From: Chloroflexota bacterium | Lineage (GTDB): Bacteria; Chloroflexota; Dehalococcoidia; DSTF01; JACRBR01 | Direction of reading: 5' to 3' | NCBI GenBank assembly: GCA_028872875.1 | Contig: JAGWOC010000019.1 | Span: 1-46,960, forward strand | Length of the DNA stretch: 46,960 bases | Shown here: piece by piece, positions 10,003 to 45,561 of the stretch | Position numbering within the stretch: position 1 is the stretch's first letter | How the letters are laid out: every line of letters begins with the position of its first letter | Notes under the pieces: generated by a model | Database searches by the model: none | Told to the model about the DNA's origin: nothing | The model's input: only the letters and a program-made list of their open reading frames with translations | Position numbers and translations under genes: made by a program

Positions 10003-10359
10003 GTGCCGCGCCGACCGCGTCGACCCTGCCCGCATCCGGGCTGCCCGCGATTCCGCCCGTGCGCGCTGCATCCGGCGACGCCCTACCGCGGCAGCTCGAC
10101 AGCACTCGGCTACGGAGCCGCGTGGCGCAAGGTCAGCACGCGGGTACTCGCCGAGGAGCCAATCTGTCCCGGCTACCCGCCGCCCTGCGGCGACCTGACC
10201 GAGGTCGTCGACCACATCCAATCTCGCCGGCGCGGGGGGACCGACGAGCGGACGAACCTGCGCGCGTACTGCCGCGGCTGCCACTCGCGCAAGACCGTCG
10301 CCGAAGACGGCGGCTGGGGACACGCGCCGCATGAACGTCGTGGAGATGCCGCTCGCTGA
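10003..10359 (+). CDS. Phage HNH endonuclease
   Basis: This 118-residue HNH nuclease starts at GTG. Cys/His pairs (CPHPGCP, CGDL, CRGCH) give a zinc-ribbon frame. The HNH core runs VVDHIQSRRRGGTDERTNLR and then YCRGCHSRKT. Small HNH proteins of this type sit beside terminase genes in HK97-like phages and assist DNA cutting during packaging. It overlaps the methyltransferase gene by 29 bp and is the first gene of the late cluster. Confidence 0.88.
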   Translation: MPRRPRRPCPHPGCPRFRPCALHPATPYRGSSTALGYGAAWRKVSTRVLAEEPICPGYPPPCGDLTEVVDHIQSRRRGGTDERTNLRAYCRGCHSRKTVAEDGGWGHAPHERRGDAAR

Positions 10360-11656
10360 CCTGGTGCCCGCCGCGTACAACCCGCGCAAGGCGCTGCGCG
10401 ACGGCGACCCGGAATACGCCAAGCTCCGCCGCTCCATCGAGGAGTTCGGACTCGTCGATCCGATCATCTGGAACAGCCGCACGAAGCGCGTCATCGGCGG
10501 CCATCAGCGGCTCACCGTGCTGCGCGACCTGGGCCGCACCACCGTGCCGACCGTCGTCGTCGACCTCGATGAGAAACGCGAGAAGGCGCTCAACGTCGCG
10601 CTGAACAAAGTCACCGGCGACTGGGATCTCACGCTGCTGCGCGATCTCCTGAACGAGATCCAGCTGAGCGGCGAGGATGCCACCCTGACCGGCTTCGATC
10701 CGAAGGAGATCGAGGAGCTCGTCACCAGCTACCGCGACAGCGACCCGGGCGAGGACGCGCCAGTGCCCGAGCCGCCGAAGGATCCCCTATCACGGCCCGG
10801 CGATCTTTACGAGCTCGGCTCGCACCGCCTGCTCTGCGGCGACTCGCGCGAGGTGGCGAGCTGGGAGCGGCTCCTCGGCCGCGAGGTCGCCGACATCATG
10901 TGGACCGACCCGCCGTACGGCGTCGACCTGCAGATCCGCGTCGACCGCATGAACCCCGACAAGGGCGCCGTGACCAACGGCGAGGACGCCTTCGAAGGCG
11001 ACAAGCCCGAAGAGACACGGCCGCTCCTCGCGGCGGTGTTTCGCCAAGCCGACACGCATCTCAAGCGCGGCGCTCCCATCTACATCGCCGCGCCGCACGG
11101 CCGCATGCTGACGGTGTTCCAGGAGGAGTACCTCCGCACGGGCTGGCTGCTGCACCAGACCCTCGTCTGGGTCAAAAACAGCTTCGTCCCCGGGCGCACC
11201 GACTACCACTACCAGCACGAGGCCGTCATCTACGGCTGGAAGCGCGGCGCGCCGCGCACCTGGGCGCTGCGCGCCGACCAGAGCACGGTCATCGACGACA
11301 CCCCCAGCGTCGCGCACATGAAGCGCGAAGAGCTCCTCGCATACGTCAAGGAGCTCCGCGCGCAGCTGCGCACCGACGTCCTCTACGAATCGAAGACGCC
11401 GCACAACGATGTGCACCCGACGATGAAGCCGGTGCCGCTGGTGCGGCGGATGCTCGCCAACAGCAGCGTCCCGAACGCCATCGTGCTCGAGCCCTTCGGC
11501 GGCTCGGGCACGACGCTCATCGCCGCGGCGCAGATGGGCCGACGGGCGCGCGCCATCGAGCTCGAGCCGCGTTTCTGCGACGTCATCGTGCAGCGCTGGC
11601 AGAACCTCACCGGCCAGAAGGCCCGGCGGATCACTGCGGCGGAGGCGGCGGCGTGA
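10331..11656 (+). CDS. ParB-domain DNA methyltransferase
   Basis: This protein has 441 residues. Residues 1-115 form a ParB/Srx-like domain (YNPRKALRD, GLVDPIIWN, VIGGHQRLTVLRDLG). The rest is an amino-methyltransferase with catalytic DPPY in IMWTDPPYGVD (about 190-200) and the AdoMet motif LEPFGGSGTT near the C-terminus, in beta-class order. It would methylate adenine or cytosine N4 in DNA, perhaps to protect phage DNA or mark packaging sites. Such fused genes are common upstream of terminase. The stop overlaps the next start (GTGA). Confidence 0.9.
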   Translation: MNVVEMPLADLVPAAYNPRKALRDGDPEYAKLRRSIEEFGLVDPIIWNSRTKRVIGGHQRLTVLRDLGRTTVPTVVVDLDEKREKALNVALNKVTGDWDLTLLRDLLNEIQLSGEDATLTGFDPKEIEELVTSYRDSDPGEDAPVPEPPKDPLSRPGDLYELGSHRLLCGDSREVASWERLLGREVADIMWTDPPYGVDLQIRVDRMNPDKGAVTNGEDAFEGDKPEETRPLLAAVFRQADTHLKRGAPIYIAAPHGRMLTVFQEEYLRTGWLLHQTLVWVKNSFVPGRTDYHYQHEAVIYGWKRGAPRTWALRADQSTVIDDTPSVAHMKREELLAYVKELRAQLRTDVLYESKTPHNDVHPTMKPVPLVRRMLANSSVPNAIVLEPFGGSGTTLIAAAQMGRRARAIELEPRFCDVIVQRWQNLTGQKARRITAAEAAA

Positions 11657-21271: not shown

Positions 21272-21705
21272 TGCCGACCGTAATCCGCGACTGGCGAGCC
21301 GCGCAGCTCCTCGCCTTCGCGGCGGCGGCCGAGCGCGCGGCGGTCATCGAGACGCTCGACGCCGCGGTCGCCGATGCCAAGGCCAGCCACGGCTGGCAGA
21401 GTCGGACCGGCGCCGCGCTGCTCTCGATCAGGCGCGAGGACCCAAGGCCCTCGGCCGCCGGCCGCGGCGTCCTCGGCGCGTTCGGCTTCGAGCCCATCCC
21501 CCTGGTCGGCAACACCCATCGCGAGCGCAGCCGCAAGACCGGGCGCCTCCGCCAGCCGCGGACCTGGGACATGCACGGCCTCTTCCTCGAGATCGGGTTC
21601 CGCGGCCGGCCGGGCGACCACACCATCCGCCGCGCCGCGGACCGCGAGTTCCCGACCCTCCCGGAGCGCATCCGGGCGCATCTTCCCGCGGAGCTACGGG
21701 CATGA
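21271..21705 (+). CDS. HK97 gp10-like head-tail protein
   Basis: This 144-residue protein uses an ATG start overlapping the preceding TGA. The N-terminal helix (WRAAQLLAFAAAAERAAVIE) and a later beta/basic region (IPLVGNTHRERSRKTGRLRQ) end in RRAADREFPTLPERIRAHLP, a C-terminal pattern frequent in gp10-like minor tail or neck proteins. It lies exactly where that gene is expected, between stopper and tail terminator. Confidence 0.55.
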   Translation: MPTVIRDWRAAQLLAFAAAAERAAVIETLDAAVADAKASHGWQSRTGAALLSIRREDPRPSAAGRGVLGAFGFEPIPLVGNTHRERSRKTGRLRQPRTWDMHGLFLEIGFRGRPGDHTIRRAADREFPTLPERIRAHLPAELRA

Positions 21706-22124
21706 TCCCCGACCCGCTGCTCGCGCTGCGCGCGATCGTCGCCGCGGACGCGGACGTCGCCGCGATCGCCGGGACGCGCATCTTCGCCGCGGAGCTGCCC
21801 GACAGCGAGGCCGCGGAGATGCCGCGCGCGGCCGCGGTCATCGCCGCCTCGGGCGGCCCGCCGGATCTGGGCTACGCGCCGCTCGCGCACCGCCGAATCG
21901 ACGTGCGCACGTACGGGGTGACCCCGCTCGGGGCGATGAAGCTGCACCTCGCCCTTCACGCGGCGCTCAAGTCGCTGCGCCGCCGGTCCAGCCTGGGCGT
22001 GCTGGTGCACTCGGCCGCGCTCGATGCGGGGCCGGTCGCGATGCGCGAGCCGGAGGTCGGGGCGGAGTGGCCTTTCGTCTTCGCCTCGTACGAGGTCCTC
22101 GCCTCAGAAGAGGCCGTCGCATGA
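21702..22124 (+). CDS. Tail terminator-like protein
   Basis: This 140-residue protein overlaps the previous gene (ATGA). An opening helix DPLLALRAIVAADADVAAIA followed by GTRIFAAELPDSEAAEMPRA is typical of tail-terminator (lambda gpU/DUF3168-like) proteins that cap the tail tube. Its place just before the tube gene supports this. Confidence 0.65.
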   Translation: MIPDPLLALRAIVAADADVAAIAGTRIFAAELPDSEAAEMPRAAAVIAASGGPPDLGYAPLAHRRIDVRTYGVTPLGAMKLHLALHAALKSLRRRSSLGVLVHSAALDAGPVAMREPEVGAEWPFVFASYEVLASEEAVA

Positions 22125-22163
22125 CCCGCGACAACGCGAATCCACGCGCAAGGAGTGAGCGAC

Positions 22164-22754
22164 ATGCCCAACAGTGATCCGTTCGAGATCCTCGCCGGCC
22201 CGGCCGACATCTACGTCGCGCCGATTGGCACCGCCTTCCCGCTCGTCGATGCCGCGCCGGCAGTGGACTGGGTGCTGCTCGCGCGCGACACCGAGATGGA
22301 CGAGGCGGGCGTGATCGTGAAGGCCGACCAGACCGTCGAGCACGTCTACTCGCTCGGCGGCACCGGTTCGCGCAAGGGCTTCCGCACCCGCCAGGACCTG
22401 CATGTGCTGTTCACGCTGATGGACGCCACGGTCGAGGCGTACAGCCGGGCGCTCTCCGACCAGCAGGTGACCACCACCGCGGCTGGTGCGGGGACGCCCG
22501 GGTACAAGACGATCGCCCTCGCCATGCCTGGCGGGGCTGTGGCGACGAAAGCGCTGCTCGTGCGGGTCAAGGAGTCGCCCTACGGCGACGGGATGCAGGC
22601 GCAGTGGGAGTTCCCCCGCGCGTACAACTCCGGCAACGTCGAGACCAAGTACACCAAGGGCATCCCGGTCGGCCTCGCCTTCGACTTCGTGGTCATGGAC
22701 GACAACGCCGGGGTGAAGGGCAGCTACCGGGCGCAGCACGCGCTGGCGTCCTGA
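22164..22754 (+). CDS. Major tail tube protein
   Basis: ATG 22164 is chosen over GTG 22155 because AAGGAG lies 8 bases before it. The 196-residue product has the tail-tube opening PFEILAGPADIYVAPIGTAF, central beta strands, and IALAMPGGAVATKALLVRVK. It polymerises into the non-contractile tail. No sheath gene follows, so the phage would be a siphovirus. Confidence 0.8.
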   Translation: MPNSDPFEILAGPADIYVAPIGTAFPLVDAAPAVDWVLLARDTEMDEAGVIVKADQTVEHVYSLGGTGSRKGFRTRQDLHVLFTLMDATVEAYSRALSDQQVTTTAAGAGTPGYKTIALAMPGGAVATKALLVRVKESPYGDGMQAQWEFPRAYNSGNVETKYTKGIPVGLAFDFVVMDDNAGVKGSYRAQHALAS

Positions 22755-23212
22755 TGGGGCGGGCCACGAAAGCGCGCGCGGATCCACCGCCCAGCCGCGT
22801 GCTCGAGCTCACCACGAGAGCGGACGAGAGCCCGGGCTACGTCCGCATCGACGAGCGGACCTACGAGATGGCGAACCCCTCGCACTTCGGCCTGCGCGCC
22901 GGCGGCGAGATCTGGCGATCGGTCGAGCGCATCGCCGCGCTCGAGCAGCTCGCTGAGCCGAGCGAGGCCGACGAGCGCGAGTACCGCGAGAGATTGGAGC
23001 GCATCGCGCGCGTCGCGGTGCCGGAGCTCGAGGCCGAGGTCATCGCGAAGCTCGCGACCGGACAGCTCGCCGACCTGGTGGTCTCTTTTTTCGCGCTCGT
23101 GGCGGCGACGAGCCCGCGCCTGGGGACGCTGATGCGGACGACGGCCGCGAGCTCGCCAGCTGGGACGACGTCGTCGCCGAGCTCCTCCGCTTCTACGGCG
23201 GCGAGCCGATGA
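22754..23212 (+). CDS. Tail assembly chaperone, unshifted product (G-type)
   Basis: This 152-residue protein starts ATGA-overlapped with the tube gene. Its body is helical (IWRSVERIAALEQLAEPSEA, DEREYRERLERIARVAVPEL). After the slippery site the zero-frame tail is low in complexity (Ser/Thr/Ala) and ends at TGA 23210-23212. It corresponds to lambda gpG and would bind tape-measure and tube subunits during assembly. A minor share of ribosomes would make the longer fusion described at 23092. Confidence 0.8.
   Translation: MGRATKARADPPPSRVLELTTRADESPGYVRIDERTYEMANPSHFGLRAGGEIWRSVERIAALEQLAEPSEADEREYRERLERIARVAVPELEAEVIAKLATGQLADLVVSFFALVAATSPRLGTLMRTTAASSPAGTTSSPSSSASTAASR
23086..23113 (+). promoter_or_regulatory. 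Programmed -1 ribosomal frameshift site
   Basis: The zero-frame codons are TCT TTT TTC, giving the slippery heptamer T TTT TTC at 23086-23092, which fits X XXY YYZ. Two bases later GCTCGT (23095-23100) pairs with ACGAGC (23108-23113) around a 7-base loop. The stem can extend by about three pairs with one mismatch. A -1 shift here opens a frame without stops to 23454. Confidence 0.8.
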
Positions 23213-23454
23213 GCTGGCTTGATACACCGCTGGCGCTGCTGCGCGCACTCCACGAGCGGATGGGGATGCTCGCGGCGCGCGAGTCGCTCCGCATGGCGAC
23301 CGCGGTCGCGCTCGGCAGCGGCACGCTGCGCCGTGAGGCCGCGACCGCCGCCTGGCGCGAGCTCGAGGAACAGGCGGAGCTCGCGCCGCGGCCGCGGATC
23401 CTGCGCCGTCCGACCGCGGCCCAGCTCGCGGCGATCGGGATCCGCACCGCATGA
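23092..23454 (+). CDS. Tail assembly chaperone, frameshift extension (T-part of the GT fusion)
   Basis: After the -1 slip, reading continues RARGGDEPAPGDADADDGRE, then LASWDDVVAELLRFYGGEPM and SWLDTPLALLRALHERMGML, without a stop to 23454. Joined to 22754-23092 it gives a GT protein of about 233 residues. The extension is acidic then helical and looks far more protein-like than the zero-frame tail. ATG 23209 inside it could also start an independent product, but no good ribosome site precedes it. It ends ATGA-overlapped with the tape measure gene. Confidence 0.75.
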   Translation, partial: RARGGDEPAPGDADADDGRELASWDDVVAELLRFYGGEPMSWLDTPLALLRALHERMGMLAARESLRMATAVALGSGTLRREAATAAWRELEEQAELAPRPRILRRPTAAQLAAIGIRTA

Positions 23455-25325
23455 GCTTCCGGCTCGGCTCGGCGGTCATCGAGCTCTCGACGAGCGATGC
23501 GAAACTCGATGCTGGGCTCGCCGCGGCGAAGCAGAAGGTCACCGCGGCCGCTGGCGCGATCCAGCAGAAGGCCGACTTAAGCGCCGCGCTCGGCCGCTTC
23601 TTCAGCGGCGCGGCGGTCGGCGCTGCGATCCAGGGGCTGGGCGAGGTCGTGAAGGTCGCACGAGCGGCCCAGGTCTCCGAGGCGCAGCTCGCGCAGGCCG
23701 TCCGCACGACGGGCCTCGATTGGGAACGGAACGCGAAGGCGGTCGACGCCGTGCTCGCGAGCCGGCGGAGACTAGCCTTCAGCGACAACGACCTGCGCGG
23801 GTCGCTTGCGATCCTGGTCGAGGAGACCGGCAGCCTGACCGAGGCTCTGGCGCGGCAGCAGGTCGCAGCCGACCTGTCACGCGGCACGCACCTCGACCTC
23901 TATACGGCCTCGAAGCTCGTCGGCAAGGTCACCGACGAGAACATCCGCGTCCTCGGCCGCTACGGGGTCGTGGTGCAGAAGGGCGCCGACGCGCAGGCGG
24001 TGATGGCCGCGGTCGAGGCGAAGTTCGGCGGCCAGGCCGAGGCCTACGCCGCGACGCAGCAGGCCAGCGCCGACCGCATCGCGAACTCCTGGGAGCGGGC
24101 GCAGGAGCAAGTCGGCGGGGCGATCTCGAGCACACTGCCGCTGCTCGCCAGCGGTGCGCAGCTCTGGACGAGCTTCGGCCACGAGGGCATCGTTGCGGCC
24201 GGCGCGGTCGCCGCGTTCGCCAAGGCGGGAAACGGTACGGTCCCGGTCCTCACCGGCCTGCGCTCGGGGATCACGCTCCTCGGCGGCGCGCTCAAGCTGC
24301 TCTTCCTCAACCCGGTCGGCATCGCCATCCTCGCCGTCGCCGCGCTGGCTATCGGGCTCAAGCTCCTCTACGACCGCAGCGAAGGCTTTCGGCGGATCGT
24401 GAACGCCGTCGGCGACGCGCTGCGCCGCGTCTTCGGCCCGATCCTGGCCTGGCTCGGCGACCGCCTGGGCGATCTTGGCAAAGCGCTCGGTCTGGTCGGC
24501 GACGACGCAGCTGGTCTCGGCGCCGAGTTCGAGGACGGCGCGGCGAAAGCGAAGGGCGCGATCAAGAGCATCGCGGGCGAGCTCGCAGACCTGAATGAGA
24601 TGTTCAAGCCCGCCGGCGCTGATCAGACCGAGAAGTTCCTGCAGGCCATCGGCGCGGATCCGGCGCTGATCAACGCCGCGCTCGACGCCCTCTACAACAC
24701 CGTCGGCGCCGACCAGGCCACGCGCTTCAAGAAGGTCACCGACCGCGCGTTCAAGGATCTCTCCACGCAGTTCGAGAGCTCCGACGCATACAAGGAGGCG
24801 AAGGAGAACCTCAAGAACGCCCTCTCGATGTCCGAGGTCGACTTCTCCAAGCTCGCCGCGTCGCTCGGTAAGTCCCCGGCGCAGTACATGGCCGAGCTGA
24901 AGAAGAACTCGGCCGACGCCGACCGCCTGCTCGAGCACTACCAATCTCAGCTCGAAGCGGCGATCAAGACCGCTCGCGAGAACGGCCAGACCGAGCTCCA
25001 CCAAGCGAAGCTCGCATCGAACCGGGTGAGCGATCACATCCGTGATCTCCACGACCTCCGCGCCGCCTGGGCCGAGGCCGACAGCGCCGCGATCTCCTAC
25101 TACCAGGACGTGCTGCGCGGCGGCCCGCCGCGCGCGACACCGATGAGCCCGGCCAACCGCGAGCTGCAGCAAGGCGGTGACATCGGCGGCCGCGGGCTCT
25201 CTGTCGTGGTGAACCAGAGCCTGGCCTATTCGGGTGACACCGCGGCGATGGCCGCGGGCGCCGCGGGCGAGGTCGTCGACGCGGTGACCGAAGCGATGCG
25301 CCAGCAGCTGCGGCGGATCGCTTAG
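23451..25325 (+). CDS. Tape measure protein
   Basis: This 624-residue protein is mostly alpha-helical. Early segments (AKLDAGLAAAKQKVTAAAGA, LSAALGRFFSGAAVGAAIQG) are typical of tape measures. A hydrophobic stretch (LKLLFLNPVGIAILAVAALA, about 283-302) would serve membrane insertion during DNA ejection. The C-terminal third is charged and helical. The protein sets tail length; at about 1.5 angstrom per residue the tail would be near 90 nm, which is short for the group (inference). Confidence 0.88.
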   Translation: MSFRLGSAVIELSTSDAKLDAGLAAAKQKVTAAAGAIQQKADLSAALGRFFSGAAVGAAIQGLGEVVKVARAAQVSEAQLAQAVRTTGLDWERNAKAVDAVLASRRRLAFSDNDLRGSLAILVEETGSLTEALARQQVAADLSRGTHLDLYTASKLVGKVTDENIRVLGRYGVVVQKGADAQAVMAAVEAKFGGQAEAYAATQQASADRIANSWERAQEQVGGAISSTLPLLASGAQLWTSFGHEGIVAAGAVAAFAKAGNGTVPVLTGLRSGITLLGGALKLLFLNPVGIAILAVAALAIGLKLLYDRSEGFRRIVNAVGDALRRVFGPILAWLGDRLGDLGKALGLVGDDAAGLGAEFEDGAAKAKGAIKSIAGELADLNEMFKPAGADQTEKFLQAIGADPALINAALDALYNTVGADQATRFKKVTDRAFKDLSTQFESSDAYKEAKENLKNALSMSEVDFSKLAASLGKSPAQYMAELKKNSADADRLLEHYQSQLEAAIKTARENGQTELHQAKLASNRVSDHIRDLHDLRAAWAEADSAAISYYQDVLRGGPPRATPMSPANRELQQGGDIGGRGLSVVVNQSLAYSGDTAAMAAGAAGEVVDAVTEAMRQQLRRIA

Positions 25326-32335: not shown

Positions 32336-34966
32336 TCAGTCGATGACCAGTGCGCTCAGGTCTGCAAAGTCGCTGGGCTCAAGTTTCTCGAACTCTTTTT
32401 GGGGGACCTTCAGGTACCGCCAACTGGTCCCTGTGAGCATCGTGGCGTTCTCGCACCAGATCACCGCCGCGCGGTCCTTGAACTTCACGTCCGGATCCTC
32501 GCGGCCCTTTGTCTCGGCAAGACAGTGGGTGCCGTCGCCGAGGACCGCGATGAAGTCTGGCTCGTAGTAGCGGAGGTTTCCCTGAGCGTCGACGTAGTCG
32601 ATCGTGAAGGCGAAGCGACCGGGCAGCTTGGCGAAGCGCGCGACGTCGTCGGCGTCTTCGAGGAAGTGCGCGAAGCGCGTCTCGAACTTGTTCTCGACCG
32701 CGACAAGGTTGAAGACAGTCTTGCTCGCCGCGAACGTGTCTCGTGCGAAGGGGAAGGGCGGTGTCTCCGAGAGGAGTCGACCCGCCTGCACCAGTGCCGG
32801 CGCCAACTCCTCGATGAGTCGGCCGCGCAGTGCCTTGCCGAACGAGGTCACGGTCACGTACTGCGCCACGTTCGTCGCGATGGCCCGGACCATCTCTGGC
32901 GTCTCTATGTCCACCTTCTTCCCGAAGGCGACCTCTTGTAGGAATTCGCGGATCTTGGGCACCAACGCCGCGAACTGCGCAGGCAATTTGACGTCGCTGG
33001 CGATGCGTTTGGCGTAATAGGAGATGACCTCCTGTGCCGTCTGCGGCTCGGGGATCGTGTACTCGCGCTCGATGAGTTTCTCGAGAGTGACGATGTCGCG
33101 GCCCTCGTACGTGAACCTCTGCGCCGCGTCGTCGCCCGCTCGAACTGGGAGCACCGGCACGCCCGGGAACCGGCGCACGTCGAGAGCGGCAATCTCCTCA
33201 GCGAGGGTCTTCTTCCGCTGGAGGATCGGACTCAGCACGGGAACGGAGATGTCCATCTCGAGCTTGTCGGGGTCGGGCGCGATGGTGACGATCTCGAGCT
33301 TGTCCTTGCCGAGCTCGAAGGTTTCGAGTGCGTAGTCCTCCTCCTTCTCGAGCTGATCGACGAACGAGAGGAACCCCCTGTTGCCGATGATGTCCACGCG
33401 TTCGGTGTAGTCCACGGCAATGTCGCGGAACATCCGGCGGAGTCCGCGGCCGATGGTCTGCTCTGGGAGGATGTTGGCCTTGGCGTTGTAGGGCCGCAGC
33501 CCCACGACCACGGTCACGTTCTGCACATCCCAGCCCTCGCGGAGCATGAGGACCGAGACGATCGCGTTCACGGGGCTGTCCGGGCGATCGACCTCGCGCG
33601 CCACGCGGCGCGCGTCCTCGACCATCGACTTCGAGATGTCGCCCGAGCGGTCCGTGTGGATAACCAGGAGCCTCTCGGCGGCGAACTCCTCGGGGTAGGT
33701 GACGCGCAAGTACTCGCCGACCTCGTCGGCCTCGCGCGTCGACGTGAGCATGACGAAGAGCACCGGCTTCTTACCCAACTTCTTCAGCTGCTCGCGGTAC
33801 TCCCGCCAACGCATGACCCCTGCGGTGAGATAGGCCCGGTACTTCACGGACGCTGTGTCCGAAGGCTGCTCACGGATACCGGCGGCAACGCCCTTGAGCG
33901 GCCGCTTGACGACCCCGTCGATGATCGCCGCCTTGAGCGGATAGTCGACCACGGTCCAGCTGAAGAGCGCCCCCTTCGAGTAACGCGGGGTGGCCGAGAA
34001 GTCGAGCTGCGCGAGCGGCATCAGCGGCGGCGTGGTCTTCGCGAAGCTGCGGATGACCTCGTTCCACTCGCTGCCCTCGTCGTGCGTGTGGTGGGCCTCG
34101 TCATTGAGCACGACCAGCGGCTCGCGGCGGGCAAGGATGCGCTCCGCGAAGCCGTCGCGCTCTTCCTCGCTGGGCGGCGGTGAGCCGAGCACGCCCGTCA
34201 TCTCCTCGGGCTCTTCGGCTTCTTCTTCGCTTGGGCGCGCGTAGAGCTGTTGAATGTTGGTGAGGTAGAGCGCGCCCTCGCTCCGCGCCCGCTCGACATC
34301 GCCGCGCACGTAGGAATCGAGGTCCCAGTAGATCTTGAGTTCGGGCGGCACGATCGGGTCGAAGCGGAAGGTCTTGCCGTCGCGGAAGTCGAGAGCGAGG
34401 CGCTCGAGGACGATGACGTTCGGCGCGAGCACGAGGAAGGTCTTCGCGAACTCGGAGTTGCCCTCGGCCACAGCGTTGAGGTATTGCCATGCGATCGCCA
34501 GTGCCATGACCTTGGTCTTCCCCGAGCCTGTCGCCATTTTCACGCAGTAGCGCGCCAGGTCGTCGTACTGCAGGAGGTGCAGATCTGGTAACCCTGGCGC
34601 GAAGGCAGTGATCAGATCCTTGTGCCGGCGGACTTTGGCAACCTCGTACAGGTAGATGAGCGTCTCTATAGCAGTGCGCTGCGAGTGGTGGTACTCGAAG
34701 CGCTGGCCATTCGGGCGGTGGTCAGTCTTGAACCAGTAGTTGAGGAGGAGTTCGGTGGTCGGGCTTACGCCGCGGTAGCTCTTACGCCATTGCGCCACAG
34801 CCTCGCGAATCGCGGGCACGCACGGCGCGGTCCTGAGCGTCGGTTCGATGAGTCCGAGCTGGGCCGAGGGAACCGGTGGCGCCTTGCGACTCTTAGTCGG
34901 CGCCTTGGCGCCGCGTTTGGGGAGGGCACTCTTTGAAGCTGCGCGCTTTGCCGGGGCCCGGCTCAC
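32336..34966 (-). CDS. Type III-like restriction subunit (Res helicase-nuclease)
   Basis: GTG 34966 overlaps the Mod stop by 4 bp, giving 876 residues; the longer upstream frame runs inside Mod and is discarded. It is a DEAD/DEAH translocase with Walker A in KMATGSGKTKVMA, DEAH in VVLNDEAHHTHD, a SAT-type motif in LDFSATPRYSKG and motif VI in EQTIGRGLRRM. The C-terminal PD-(D/E)XK nuclease pattern is YYEPDFIAVLGDGTHCLAETKG. A basic Ala/Lys-rich N-terminal 30 residues is disordered. With Mod it forms a restriction system. The sequence is lower in GC than the neighbouring phage genes. Confidence 0.88.
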   Translation of the reverse strand: MSRAPAKRAASKSALPKRGAKAPTKSRKAPPVPSAQLGLIEPTLRTAPCVPAIREAVAQWRKSYRGVSPTTELLLNYWFKTDHRPNGQRFEYHHSQRTAIETLIYLYEVAKVRRHKDLITAFAPGLPDLHLLQYDDLARYCVKMATGSGKTKVMALAIAWQYLNAVAEGNSEFAKTFLVLAPNVIVLERLALDFRDGKTFRFDPIVPPELKIYWDLDSYVRGDVERARSEGALYLTNIQQLYARPSEEEAEEPEEMTGVLGSPPPSEEERDGFAERILARREPLVVLNDEAHHTHDEGSEWNEVIRSFAKTTPPLMPLAQLDFSATPRYSKGALFSWTVVDYPLKAAIIDGVVKRPLKGVAAGIREQPSDTASVKYRAYLTAGVMRWREYREQLKKLGKKPVLFVMLTSTREADEVGEYLRVTYPEEFAAERLLVIHTDRSGDISKSMVEDARRVAREVDRPDSPVNAIVSVLMLREGWDVQNVTVVVGLRPYNAKANILPEQTIGRGLRRMFRDIAVDYTERVDIIGNRGFLSFVDQLEKEEDYALETFELGKDKLEIVTIAPDPDKLEMDISVPVLSPILQRKKTLAEEIAALDVRRFPGVPVLPVRAGDDAAQRFTYEGRDIVTLEKLIEREYTIPEPQTAQEVISYYAKRIASDVKLPAQFAALVPKIREFLQEVAFGKKVDIETPEMVRAIATNVAQYVTVTSFGKALRGRLIEELAPALVQAGRLLSETPPFPFARDTFAASKTVFNLVAVENKFETRFAHFLEDADDVARFAKLPGRFAFTIDYVDAQGNLRYYEPDFIAVLGDGTHCLAETKGREDPDVKFKDRAAVIWCENATMLTGTSWRYLKVPQKEFEKLEPSDFADLSALVID

Positions 34967-36810
34967 TTCACTACGACCGTGAGCGCCTTGGTCGTGTCGT
35001 TGCCGAGGATGTCGATGACCTTCACGACGACGGTGTAGGTGCCCGGCGCCTCGTACGTGTGAGTGGTCTTGCGCTCGAGCTTGGGCGCCTTGCGCGTCCT
35101 GTAGCTCTGCCACTCATTGTGGAAGGTGTCATCGCGGTAGTTCCAGTCCACGGCCCAGTAGTCAACCCAGTCGGCCCAGTTCTTCACCGCGCGGCGGACC
35201 TCATCAGGCACGTCTCCCGGGATGACGAAGTCGGTCAGCGCGACCGTGGCCCGAAGCTTCTCGACCGCGAGGTCTAACTCGAGCGCAGCGAGTTCGAAGA
35301 AGCGGATGTCGCCCTGGTCGACGGCCCGACGGTCCATGACCTCGCTCGGGATCTTCACCATCCGGAGGTTGACGCCGGCTTTGGCGGCCTGCTGTTTGGA
35401 GACCTCGTTGATCTCGAAAGCAAAGTCCCACCCCAGGATGTCGATGCCGTTGGTCTTAGGGCTTCCTGCCCCCTTGCCCACTGCCTTCTTGAACTCGGCG
35501 ACGATCGCGGTGACGTCGGCCGGACTCACCGGCGCGTCTACGGCGCCGACATGAACCATCCGTGCTCCGCGCAGGCCGTGGAGCCACACCCGTCCTTGGA
35601 CCGGCGTCGCACCGTAGAGCTTGAGGACGAAGGCGCGATAGCGGAGCTCGCGCTGCGCGGCGTCCTCGCTGAACTCCGCCCGCTGCCAGGCCTGGCGCTC
35701 GTACTTCCCGAGGTTTTGGACCACGAAAGGACGGAGCCCCTCCATCGAGAGCAGTCGCTTGCGCGCGGTGTGGATGGCGAAGCGGCTGAGATCAGCGGCC
35801 ACCCAGCGTCGACGCAGTTGCTCTGCCACGACCGCGGTCGTGCCGCTCCCGGCGAAGCAGTCGAGGACGAGGTGGTCCTCGTCAGAGCAGGCTTTGATGA
35901 CCCACTCGAGCAGCGCGCGGGGCTTCTGGGTCGGGTACCCCGTGCGTTCATTGGCCGAAGGCGCCTCGATGGGAATTCGCAGTACGTTGTCGGGCCACTT
36001 GCCCTTGGGGTTGAGCTCCTGCGCTCCATAGTCGCGGTCGCCGCGAACGTTGCCAATGAAGTGGCTGAAGCGCTCCTTCGTGGTGTCGGCGTATTCGGTA
36101 CGCACGTCGTCGGCGTTGAACGTCCAACTCTCGCCCTTCGCGTACCAGTAGAGGTTGTCGTGACGCCGCGCCGGACGGTCCTTCGGAACACCCGCGCCGC
36201 CGTAATGCCAGATGAGCTCGTCAACCATCCGGCTCATGCCAAAGACCTCGTCGAGGACAGCCTTGGCGTATGGACCCATGCGGTAATCGAGATGCACGAT
36301 CAGGCTGCCGCGGTCGCTCAGTAGCTCGCGCAACAGCGACACCGTCTCGAAGAACCAGCTGAGATAGGAGTCGAGGCCCTTCCCCCAGGTATCGCGATAG
36401 GCCTTGACCTCAATCAGGCTCGGCTCCTTGGTGAACTCGTCGTCGCCCACGGTGATGGGGAACGAGAAGTCGGCGCCTGTGGCGAACGGCGGGTCGATAT
36501 AGACAAGGTCGACCTTGCCTGCGAACTCACCGAGCAGCGCCGGGAGGACGTACTTCTTGTCGCCCCAGATGAGGCGGTTCCGCCACTGCGACGCCGCGCC
36601 GCTGCCGAAGAGGTCGAGGGTCTTCTGGCGCTCCTGCGCCGACTCGTTCACGGTCTCAACGGTCTGGAACGGGAGGACCGCGCGCAGCGGCGCGACCTTC
36701 TGGCCCCGACTGTCGTACTTGCCTTCCCACCGCAGCTCTGGCACGAGAAACGTCAGTCTATTGATCTGCGGGGATGCGGGAACGCCGCTGGGTGGATCGG
36801 CGCGAACCAC
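34963..36810 (-). CDS. Type III-like Mod DNA methyltransferase with PKD-like C-terminus
   Basis: This protein is about 615 residues. Catalytic DPPF lies in VDLVYIDPPFATGADF (about 105-118), and LDCFAGSGTTAVVAEQL is the AdoMet site further on, so it is a beta-class N6-adenine/N4-cytosine methyltransferase. The last 35 residues (THTYEAPGTYTVVVKVIDIL, GNDTT) look like a PKD-type beta domain, as seen in other Mod partners of this Res family. The start may be GTG 36810, which overlaps the regulator by 53 bp, or lie slightly downstream. Confidence 0.88.
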   Translation of the reverse strand: MVRADPPSGVPASPQINRLTFLVPELRWEGKYDSRGQKVAPLRAVLPFQTVETVNESAQERQKTLDLFGSGAASQWRNRLIWGDKKYVLPALLGEFAGKVDLVYIDPPFATGADFSFPITVGDDEFTKEPSLIEVKAYRDTWGKGLDSYLSWFFETVSLLRELLSDRGSLIVHLDYRMGPYAKAVLDEVFGMSRMVDELIWHYGGAGVPKDRPARRHDNLYWYAKGESWTFNADDVRTEYADTTKERFSHFIGNVRGDRDYGAQELNPKGKWPDNVLRIPIEAPSANERTGYPTQKPRALLEWVIKACSDEDHLVLDCFAGSGTTAVVAEQLRRRWVAADLSRFAIHTARKRLLSMEGLRPFVVQNLGKYERQAWQRAEFSEDAAQRELRYRAFVLKLYGATPVQGRVWLHGLRGARMVHVGAVDAPVSPADVTAIVAEFKKAVGKGAGSPKTNGIDILGWDFAFEINEVSKQQAAKAGVNLRMVKIPSEVMDRRAVDQGDIRFFELAALELDLAVEKLRATVALTDFVIPGDVPDEVRRAVKNWADWVDYWAVDWNYRDDTFHNEWQSYRTRKAPKLERKTTHTYEAPGTYTVVVKVIDILGNDTTKALTVVVK

Positions 36811-42831: not shown

Positions 42832-42937
42832 CGTTGTGGCCGCTTTCCGCGGCCGCTCGACTTTGCCGGCGTTCTCGCCAGTGTTGTCGGCATGGAGACG
42901 GACCGATGACCACGACGCACGCGGGAGCCGGGCGTGA
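42824..42937 (+). CDS. Possible 37-residue early peptide
   Basis: ATG 42824 overlaps the initiator gene's stop by 8 bp and the frame ends GTGA-overlapped with the excisionase gene. The product (MASVVAAFRGRSTLPAFSPV...) has no known motif. Only the overlaps argue for translation. If unused, 42832-42933 is a short intergenic region. Confidence 0.35.
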   Translation: MASVVAAFRGRSTLPAFSPVLSAWRRTDDHDARGSRA

Positions 42938-43125
42938 ACGAGCCGCTGCTCCTCCGCGTAGAGGAAGCCGCGAAGCTGCTGCAGATCGGGCGGAACAAGG
43001 TCTACGAGCTCGCGGCCGCGGGCGAGATCCCGAGCCTGCACGTCGGACGGCAGCTGCGGATCCCGACCGAGGGGCTGCGCGAGTGGATCCGCCTACAGGC
43101 CGTCGGCGCCGAGCGGGTGCGGTGA
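42934..43125 (+). CDS. xis: Excisionase / MerR-type helix-turn-helix protein
   Basis: This 63-residue protein uses a GTG start. It is a compact winged helix of the excisionase (HTH_17) family: LLRVEEAAKLLQIGRNKVYE, LAAAGEIPSLHVGRQLRIPT. Excisionases bend attachment-site DNA and direct integrase to excise. The stop overlaps the integrase start (GTGA), the standard pairing. Confidence 0.82.
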   Translation: MNEPLLLRVEEAAKLLQIGRNKVYELAAAGEIPSLHVGRQLRIPTEGLREWIRLQAVGAERVR

Positions 43126-44327
43126 AGCGCTCCAACGGCCAGGGCTCGATCTACTTCCAGAAGTCACGCGGCCTCTACGCCGCGGCGGTCGACCAGGGCT
43201 ACGTCAACGGCAAGCGCCGGCGCAAGATCGTCTTTGGCAAGACGGTGCGCGAGGTTACGGAGAAGCTGCCGCACCTCCAGGTCGCCAACCAGACCGGGAT
43301 GCTGCCGCTCGGGAAGAAGCAGAAACTCGCCGACTACCTGCGCTGGTGGATCGCACAGCGACCCGCGAACCGAACGAGCCGCGGCTACCAGCAGATCATC
43401 GAGAACCACATCGCTCCGACGATCGGGCGGATCACGCTCGACAAGCTCGCCGCGACGCACATCGATGGGATGCTCAACGCGCTGCGCGGCGAGCTGTCGG
43501 ACACGACGCGGCACCACATCCGTGCGGTCCTCTCGGTCTCTCTCACATATGCCGAGCGCAAGTCCCTTGTCCCTCGGAACGTCGCGCGGCTCGCGGAGCC
43601 GATCTCGATGCCGGCGTACAAGAGCGTCTACCTCGACGTCGCCCAGGCGAACGCGCTGCTCGACGCGGCGAAGGGCCATCGCCTCGAGGCGCTCTTCACG
43701 CTCGCGGTGTACCTGGGGATGCGCCAGGGTGAGCTGCTCGGTCTCCGCTGGAAGGATATCGACCTCGACCGCGGCACGATCCGCGTCTTTGGCCAGCTCC
43801 AGTCGGAGCCCGGGCAGCCGCGCGGGCAAAGCCTCGTCGTGAACGAGCGACCGAAGTGGGGTTCCGAGAGGACGATCGGCCTGCCACCCGAGACGAGCTT
43901 CGTACTCGACTCACTCCGGGCGCACCGGCAGCGCCAGCGGCTCGAGCGCATCGCCGCCGGCGCCGGCAGCTGGTCGGCAACGATGCCGCTCCAGACGGAG
44001 CGCGGCATCACTCTGGTCGACAACGACCTTGTCTTCACGACCACAACAGGCAGGCCGCTCGCGGGGTCCTACCTCGACGAGGGACCGTTCCGCGAGGTGT
44101 GCCGCAAGGCGAGCATCGCGTACAGCACTCGCGAGCAGAAGGGCCTGCGCTTCCACGACCTGCGGCACTCAGCGGCGACGATCCTGCTGGCGGCCGGCGT
44201 GCCCGAGCGCGTGGTCATGGAGATCCTCGGTCACTCGACGCTCGCGATGGTGAAGCGCTACCAGCACGTCCTTCCCGGATTGACAGTCGCCGCGACCGAG
44301 CGCATGGACCGCGTGATGGGACGCTGA
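43122..44327 (+). CDS. int: Tyrosine recombinase integrase
   Basis: This 401-residue integrase has an arm-binding N-terminus (GQGSIYFQKSRGLYAAAVDQ), a core-binding SAM-like domain (about 66-155) and a catalytic domain with Arg201 (LGMRQGELLGLRW), His345 and Arg348 (FHDLRHSAAT), His371 (LGHSTLAM) and the nucleophile Tyr380 (VKRYQH). All catalytic residues are present. It would act on the tRNA-Ser site 1.1 kb to the right, and the arm-type repeats at both ends fit its N-terminal domain. Confidence 0.93.
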   Translation: MKRSNGQGSIYFQKSRGLYAAAVDQGYVNGKRRRKIVFGKTVREVTEKLPHLQVANQTGMLPLGKKQKLADYLRWWIAQRPANRTSRGYQQIIENHIAPTIGRITLDKLAATHIDGMLNALRGELSDTTRHHIRAVLSVSLTYAERKSLVPRNVARLAEPISMPAYKSVYLDVAQANALLDAAKGHRLEALFTLAVYLGMRQGELLGLRWKDIDLDRGTIRVFGQLQSEPGQPRGQSLVVNERPKWGSERTIGLPPETSFVLDSLRAHRQRQRLERIAAGAGSWSATMPLQTERGITLVDNDLVFTTTTGRPLAGSYLDEGPFREVCRKASIAYSTREQKGLRFHDLRHSAATILLAAGVPERVVMEILGHSTLAMVKRYQHVLPGLTVAATERMDRVMGR

Positions 44328-45465: not shown

Positions 45466-45530
45466 AACAAAATGCGGAGGGGGTGGGATTCGAACCCACG
45501 AAGCCCCGAAGGACTTAGCGGTTTTCAAGA
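45466..45530 (-). other. attR (element-supplied 3' half of tRNA-Ser)
   Basis: The 35 bp at 45466-45500 match 85-119 with one difference. AGCGGTTTTCAAGA, in the anticodon arm, is also shared. Between them the variable arm differs from the left copy. A crossover in the anticodon loop, with the element supplying a new 3' half, explains the pattern. Confidence 0.68.
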
Positions 45531-45561
45531 CCGCCGCACTAGGCCACTATGCGACCCCTCC
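45475..45561 (-). tRNA. tRNA-Ser (UGA)
   Basis: Read on the minus strand the gene begins GGAGGGG and ends CCCCTCC plus a discriminator G, a perfect 7-bp acceptor stem. The anticodon loop is CTTGAAA with anticodon TGA. A long variable arm identifies the class as serine. The T arm is GTGGGTTCGAATCCCAC. CCA is not encoded. Length is 87 nt. The gene is intact despite being the integration site. Confidence 0.95.

Follow-up and report, generated by a model that had tools for sequence, protein, structure and literature searches.

Phages classically make tail chaperones by frameshifting (Xu, Hendrix and Duda 2004, as cited in PMC5009743 and PMC3711429). In lambda, the tail assembly chaperones gpG and gpGT involve a -1 shift (reviewed in PMC5009743), and the minimal -1 site has been described as a tetranucleotide of the form Z_ZZN (PMC5009743). 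Phage P2 shifts on a T6 heptamer with no predicted hairpin (PMC3091744), while T TTT TTC has been proposed as the slip site for core ORFs 35/36 of PaMx73, a D3112-like, Mu-like Pseudomonas siphophage (PMC4378225). Outside the phages, experiments have established G_GUU_UUU as a -1 site of cardioviruses (PMC4524249).

Here, we describe a locus in a window of 46,960 nucleotides (the whole stretch of DNA analysed; contig C17 of a draft genome, G000, of 234 contigs) which, judged from its sequence, very probably uses programmed -1 ribosomal frameshifting to express a tail assembly chaperone pair of the lambda G/GT type from a single start codon. Frameshifted tail chaperones, and T TTT TTC as proposed in PaMx73, are already known; less expected are a Phe slip codon fixed across the whole family, the variation of its flanks, and a covarying stem present in one large clade only.

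The left part of the window holds host genes, including those for a histidine kinase, an HD-domain response regulator and a Na/H exchanger, and is followed by a prophage of siphophage type, in which terminase, portal, HK97-type capsid and tail genes are accompanied by one for a tyrosine integrase. On the forward strand, the tail terminator (21702..22124; phrog_123, E 9.8e-06) is followed by the major tail tube protein (22155..22754; phrog_117, E 1.3e-05), which shares 47% identity with the major tail protein annotated in Sinorhizobium phage StopSmel. The ATG of the G-like ORF, at 22754, overlaps the tube stop, and the start of the tape measure protein (23451..25325, forward strand; phrog_1272, E 1.3e-10) overlaps the T stop. 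The resulting order of tube (phrog_117), G/T and tape measure (phrog_1272) is the lambda-type placement, as the first-pass annotation of this DNA had recognised in setting the site between tube and tape measure genes.

In the frame of ATG 22754 (frame 2), the G-like ORF extends over 152 aa of the forward strand (22754..23212) to a stop at 23210-23212; it is delimited by the ORF list and supported by a G profile match and a predicted fold. The slippery heptamer T_TTT_TTC lies at 23086..23092 on the same strand, correctly phased as had been claimed for it, within the codons GTG GTC TCT TTT TTC GCG, and the conserved G domain ends at this site. The -1 frame is open from 22957, through the slip site, to a stop at 23452-23454, and its T-like coding region (23092..23454, forward strand; 120 aa past the slip) is identified by codon likelihood and a T profile match. 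Conceptual translation with a -1 shift at 23092, together with the comparative evidence presented below, predicts a GT fusion of 233 aa (22754..23454, forward strand), the two frames overlapping over 120 nt (23093..23212, forward strand).

According to the proposed mechanism, most ribosomes would pass T_TTT_TTC in the zero frame and produce the 152-aa G-like protein. A minority would slip back by one base with two Phe tRNAs on TTT and TTC. In the -1 frame both tRNAs could re-pair with TTT, and translation by this minority would continue through the T domain to 23454 to give the 233-aa GT as a minor product beside G. By analogy with lambda, the role of the G part may be to coat the tape measure protein, and that of the T part to recruit tube subunits.

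The locus would therefore share with lambda a short G and a long GT from one start, the -1 direction and the expectation of a low-level shift, in addition to its position between tube and tape measure. The lambda heptamer, by contrast, is GGGAAAG and that of the window TTTTTTC; also unlike lambda, G and T of the window gave no sequence-family match, and the zero-frame tail past the slip is longer (39 codons and a stop). PaMx73 has the same heptamer, -1 direction and long zero-frame tail, and its heptamer, at codons 116-118, occupies a place in G similar to that in the window (PMC4378225). In D3112 itself, orf42 contains T_TTT_TTC with the -1 frame open into orf43, and the D3112 proteins gave no match to our G and T profiles at E 0.01; unlike the D3112 group, which is transposable, the prophage in the window carries a tyrosine integrase. 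The poly-T heptamer is also shared with the E/E+E' pair of P2 (TTTTTTG; PMC3091744), although P2 is a contractile-tail phage and its heptamer ends in G. Sinorhizobium phages StopSmel and Aussie and Microcystis phage Mwe-Yong1 encode homologous tube, G and T proteins in the same -1 relation, with the slip at the codon homologous to that of the window; unlike the window, they have G_GTT_TTT and a conserved stem 5 nt downstream.

Codon statistics place the change of frame at the heptamer. The third-position GC maximum moves from phase 1 (frame 2) before the site to phase 0 (frame 1) right after it, and a scan of codon log-likelihood locates the switch at about 23084-23150. With a codon-usage likelihood model trained on other genes of the window, frame 2 scored +40.8 upstream of the site, and between 23092 and 23208, before the frame 1 ATG, the -1 frame (frame 1) scored +13.3 and the zero frame (frame 2) -1.9, which bears out the earlier description of a protein-like -1 frame open to 23454. 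The two ORFs overlap in -1 relation, and the shifted frame is protein-like before any start codon. As a bare motif the heptamer is not rare, with one observed in the window against 0.40 expected and at least one in 30 of 100 shuffles of the window; what goes beyond chance is its exact position, phase and conservation, not its mere presence. The T6 run is the only one in the window, and the site combines two codons that are rare in the phage genes counted, TTT (6/123 Phe) and TCT (5/229 Ser).

Both rare codons are kept in the close relative L050, a contig from another MAG labelled Chloroflexi, in which the region is 82% identical in DNA. In L050, TCT TTT TTC and both reading frames (zero and -1) persist despite indels on both sides of the site, and many third positions near these codons differ. 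Over the overlap, each frame is about 75% identical to L050 at the amino acid level (74% and 78% for the two), and this roughly equal conservation is consistent with dual coding. A further relative, L060, with a tube protein 67% identical, likewise retains T_TTT_TTC, so that the correctly phased slippery sequence is found in the window, L050 and L060. By the reasoning of the first-pass annotation, close relatives with both frames intact but the heptamer lost would speak against its reading; neither L050 nor L060 is such a case.

The same architecture extends to a much larger family. An alignment of the tube protein recruited 10 loci from bacterial genomes as well as 80 viral contigs, and profiles of the G and T domains, hand-seeded and then iterated, both match in 93 loci representing 78 distinct sites; the 93 include the window itself and three isolated phages, StopSmel, Aussie and Mwe-Yong1. 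All 93, complete phage genomes included, place the T domain in -1 relation to G, and all have a zero-frame T_TTY at the homologous codon at the end of the conserved G domain, a step that elsewhere in G occurs at only 24 of 7017 codons (0.34%). In 69 of the 78 distinct sites the slip coincides exactly with the end of the G profile, whereas in the remaining 9 it lies one codon further on; it reads T_TTT in 65 and T_TTC in 13. Codon statistics, L050, the -1 relation with T_TTY in 93/93 loci and the predicted fold of G described below together support a programmed frameshift that joins G- and T-like parts, as first claimed; from this evidence we infer that the shift occurs, presumably at low efficiency.

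The pattern is mostly repeated in a second, more distant set of relatives. Among distant relatives, T stands in +1 relation to G in the weak matches L165 and L169, and in the same frame as G with a stop between them in L167; the G-T frame relation may change at greater distance. A search with the fusion among 197 relatives returned one real match (L005, in G011), those to L006-L009 being chance matches, and L005 (850-1950) contains two tandem G-like paralogues before T, only the second of which has the -1 overlap with T. Neither the fusion nor the tube protein alone found close relatives in IMG/VR, and the contigs of terminase relatives (86-88% identity) were too short to extend into the tail genes.

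Could G (22754-23212) and an independent T protein starting from ATG 23209 simply be two separate genes? This ATG is in the right frame, and the first-pass annotation correctly foresaw that annotators would call a lone ORF (23209-23454): its equivalent is annotated as an individual ORF in StopSmel, Aussie and Mwe-Yong1, whose records (L046-L048) list G and T as separate hypothetical proteins with no joined CDS, as does that of D3112 (L141). Such an arrangement is nonetheless very unlikely. The conserved T motif WDDVVAELLRFYGG lies upstream of 23209 and would be lost, the -1 frame is protein-like from the slip onward, and no Shine-Dalgarno-like sequence was seen upstream of 23209. Moreover, across the 78 distinct sites the -1 frame never contained an ATG from the slip to the T domain, and in 77 of them it contained no GTG or TTG either; a T domain with no ATG of its own would therefore be reached by shifting.

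A change of frame by transcriptional rather than ribosomal slippage at the T run is just as improbable. The T6 run at the site speaks for it, but the T runs known to provoke realignment during transcription are longer (n > 8, as quoted in PMC3711429), and an RNA stem stands at ribosomal spacing in a clade of 43 sequences. It is also unlikely because the same codon serves for the shift in relatives with just 3-5 T (GGC TTT C, for example). An assembly or sequencing error that removed one base from a MAG homopolymer, or a decayed gene, would suit a homopolymer site in a draft genome of 234 contigs, but can be dismissed almost entirely given the identical frame relation in 93/93 loci, complete phage genomes among them, and the slip site kept in L050 with both frames conserved in the overlap.

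Ribosomal frameshifting, the reading we prefer, had also been credited with a GC stem beginning two bases downstream of the heptamer, and this part of the earlier claim did not hold up. A 6-bp candidate, GCTCGT/ACGAGC, is present in the window (23095-23113), but the downstream sequence folds much like shuffled sequence (z +1.16 for 50 nt and -1.18 for 60 nt against dinucleotide shuffles, +1.02 against codon-position shuffles), and one of the six pairs is mismatched in L050. The 48-60 nt downstream of the slip in the window fold only as composition predicts, with no stable stem 5-9 nt downstream, and the candidate stem is no evidence for frameshifting. A stem is not required for the frameshift interpretation, since the T6 heptamer of P2 shifts without a predicted hairpin.

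In 43 aligned sequences (A2), by contrast with the clade of the window, where it is absent, an 8-bp stem starts 5 nt past the TTT slip codon. It is of the type GCUCCUGC/GCAGGAGC, extendable to at least 10 bp, with examples at L046:4576-4623 and L066:5088-5135. Paired cells make up 97.6% of this stem and five of its pairs show two-sided changes, values equalled by 0 of 500 shuffles; sliding the partner by one column lowers pairing to about 40%. RNAalifold run on the 43 sequences returned the same stem, slightly longer.

Slip sites across the family are far from uniform, T6 being found in only 11 of the 78 distinct sites. The commonest heptamers are G_GTT_TTT (29), T_GTT_TTT (11) and G_GCT_TTT (10), and distant relatives that have no canonical heptamer still have the T_TTY step at the same codon. 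The first of these is the cardiovirus site, where the shift is infection-dependent and the stem 13-14 nt away (PMC4524249), as opposed to 5 nt in the phage clade; the PRFect motif called 'twofive' (PMC10885494) presumably, going by its name, covers GGTTTTT. In a tree built from the joined proteins, every member of the window's clade (the window, L050, L060, L089 and L136) has T6, and 5 changes in total are needed to account for the T6 label. T6 sites compared with the main clade gave p 1e-4, though the main clade is a single clade, and outside it no significant link was found between T6 sites and lack of structure (p 0.31).

These observations suggest a joint proposal of three parts, which we put forward tentatively and rate at a little under an even chance. 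Within one chaperone family, the slip codon (T_TTY, Phe) would be fixed while the rest of the cassette varies; a large clade would combine the non-canonical G_GTT_TTT, T_GTT_TTT or G_GCT_TTT with a covarying stem 5 nt downstream; and several lineages, including that of the window, would use tandem T_TTT_TTN and no stem. If true, this would amount to a natural experiment on a trade-off between site slipperiness and RNA structure that holds the G:GT ratio. As most of the contrast comes from a single clade, a direct trade-off of heptamer strength against stem is at most a possibility.

Structure prediction bears on the identity of the two parts. AlphaFold2 models of the window proteins reached pLDDT 90.6 for G and 84.7 for T. 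In a Foldseek search against predicted viral models, the best match of the G model was annotated 'Tail assembly chaperone' (E 1.9e-5, probability 1.00; TM 0.66/0.63), and several more tail assembly chaperones appeared lower in the list, which points to a predicted tail assembly chaperone fold for G. The T model matched mostly uncharacterised viral (phage) proteins, one of which, A0A4Y5TQ09, has an accession adjacent to that of a G match, A0A4Y5TQ08; this suggests that the two may be encoded by neighbouring genes. No convincing match for G or T was obtained in Pfam, PHROG or PDB sequence searches, and a PDB fold search with the G model gave nothing clear. Because neither part is recognised by the current models of Pfam and PHROG, the gene is split during genome annotation and the predicted functional GT product is missed. 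The locus would add an unannotated family of frameshifted tail chaperones, with members in a Microcystis phage and in siphophages and prophages from Chloroflexota, Elusimicrobiota and Pseudomonadota, and its aligned slip sites and covarying stem provide a ready set for relating slip-site strength and structure to bacterial frameshift levels.

With regard to the prophage as a whole, the tyrosine integrase (42834-44327) lies close to a tRNA-Ser gene (tga; 45474-45561), which is likely to be the integration site; no att repeat of at least 14 nt linking the tRNA-Ser region with the left phage end was found. Elsewhere in the window, a long minus-strand ORF (34963-36810) has an N-terminal match to a DNA methylase (N6_N4_Mtase) and ends in a PKD-type match, and another methylase, which carries a ParB_N domain, is encoded at 10331-11656.
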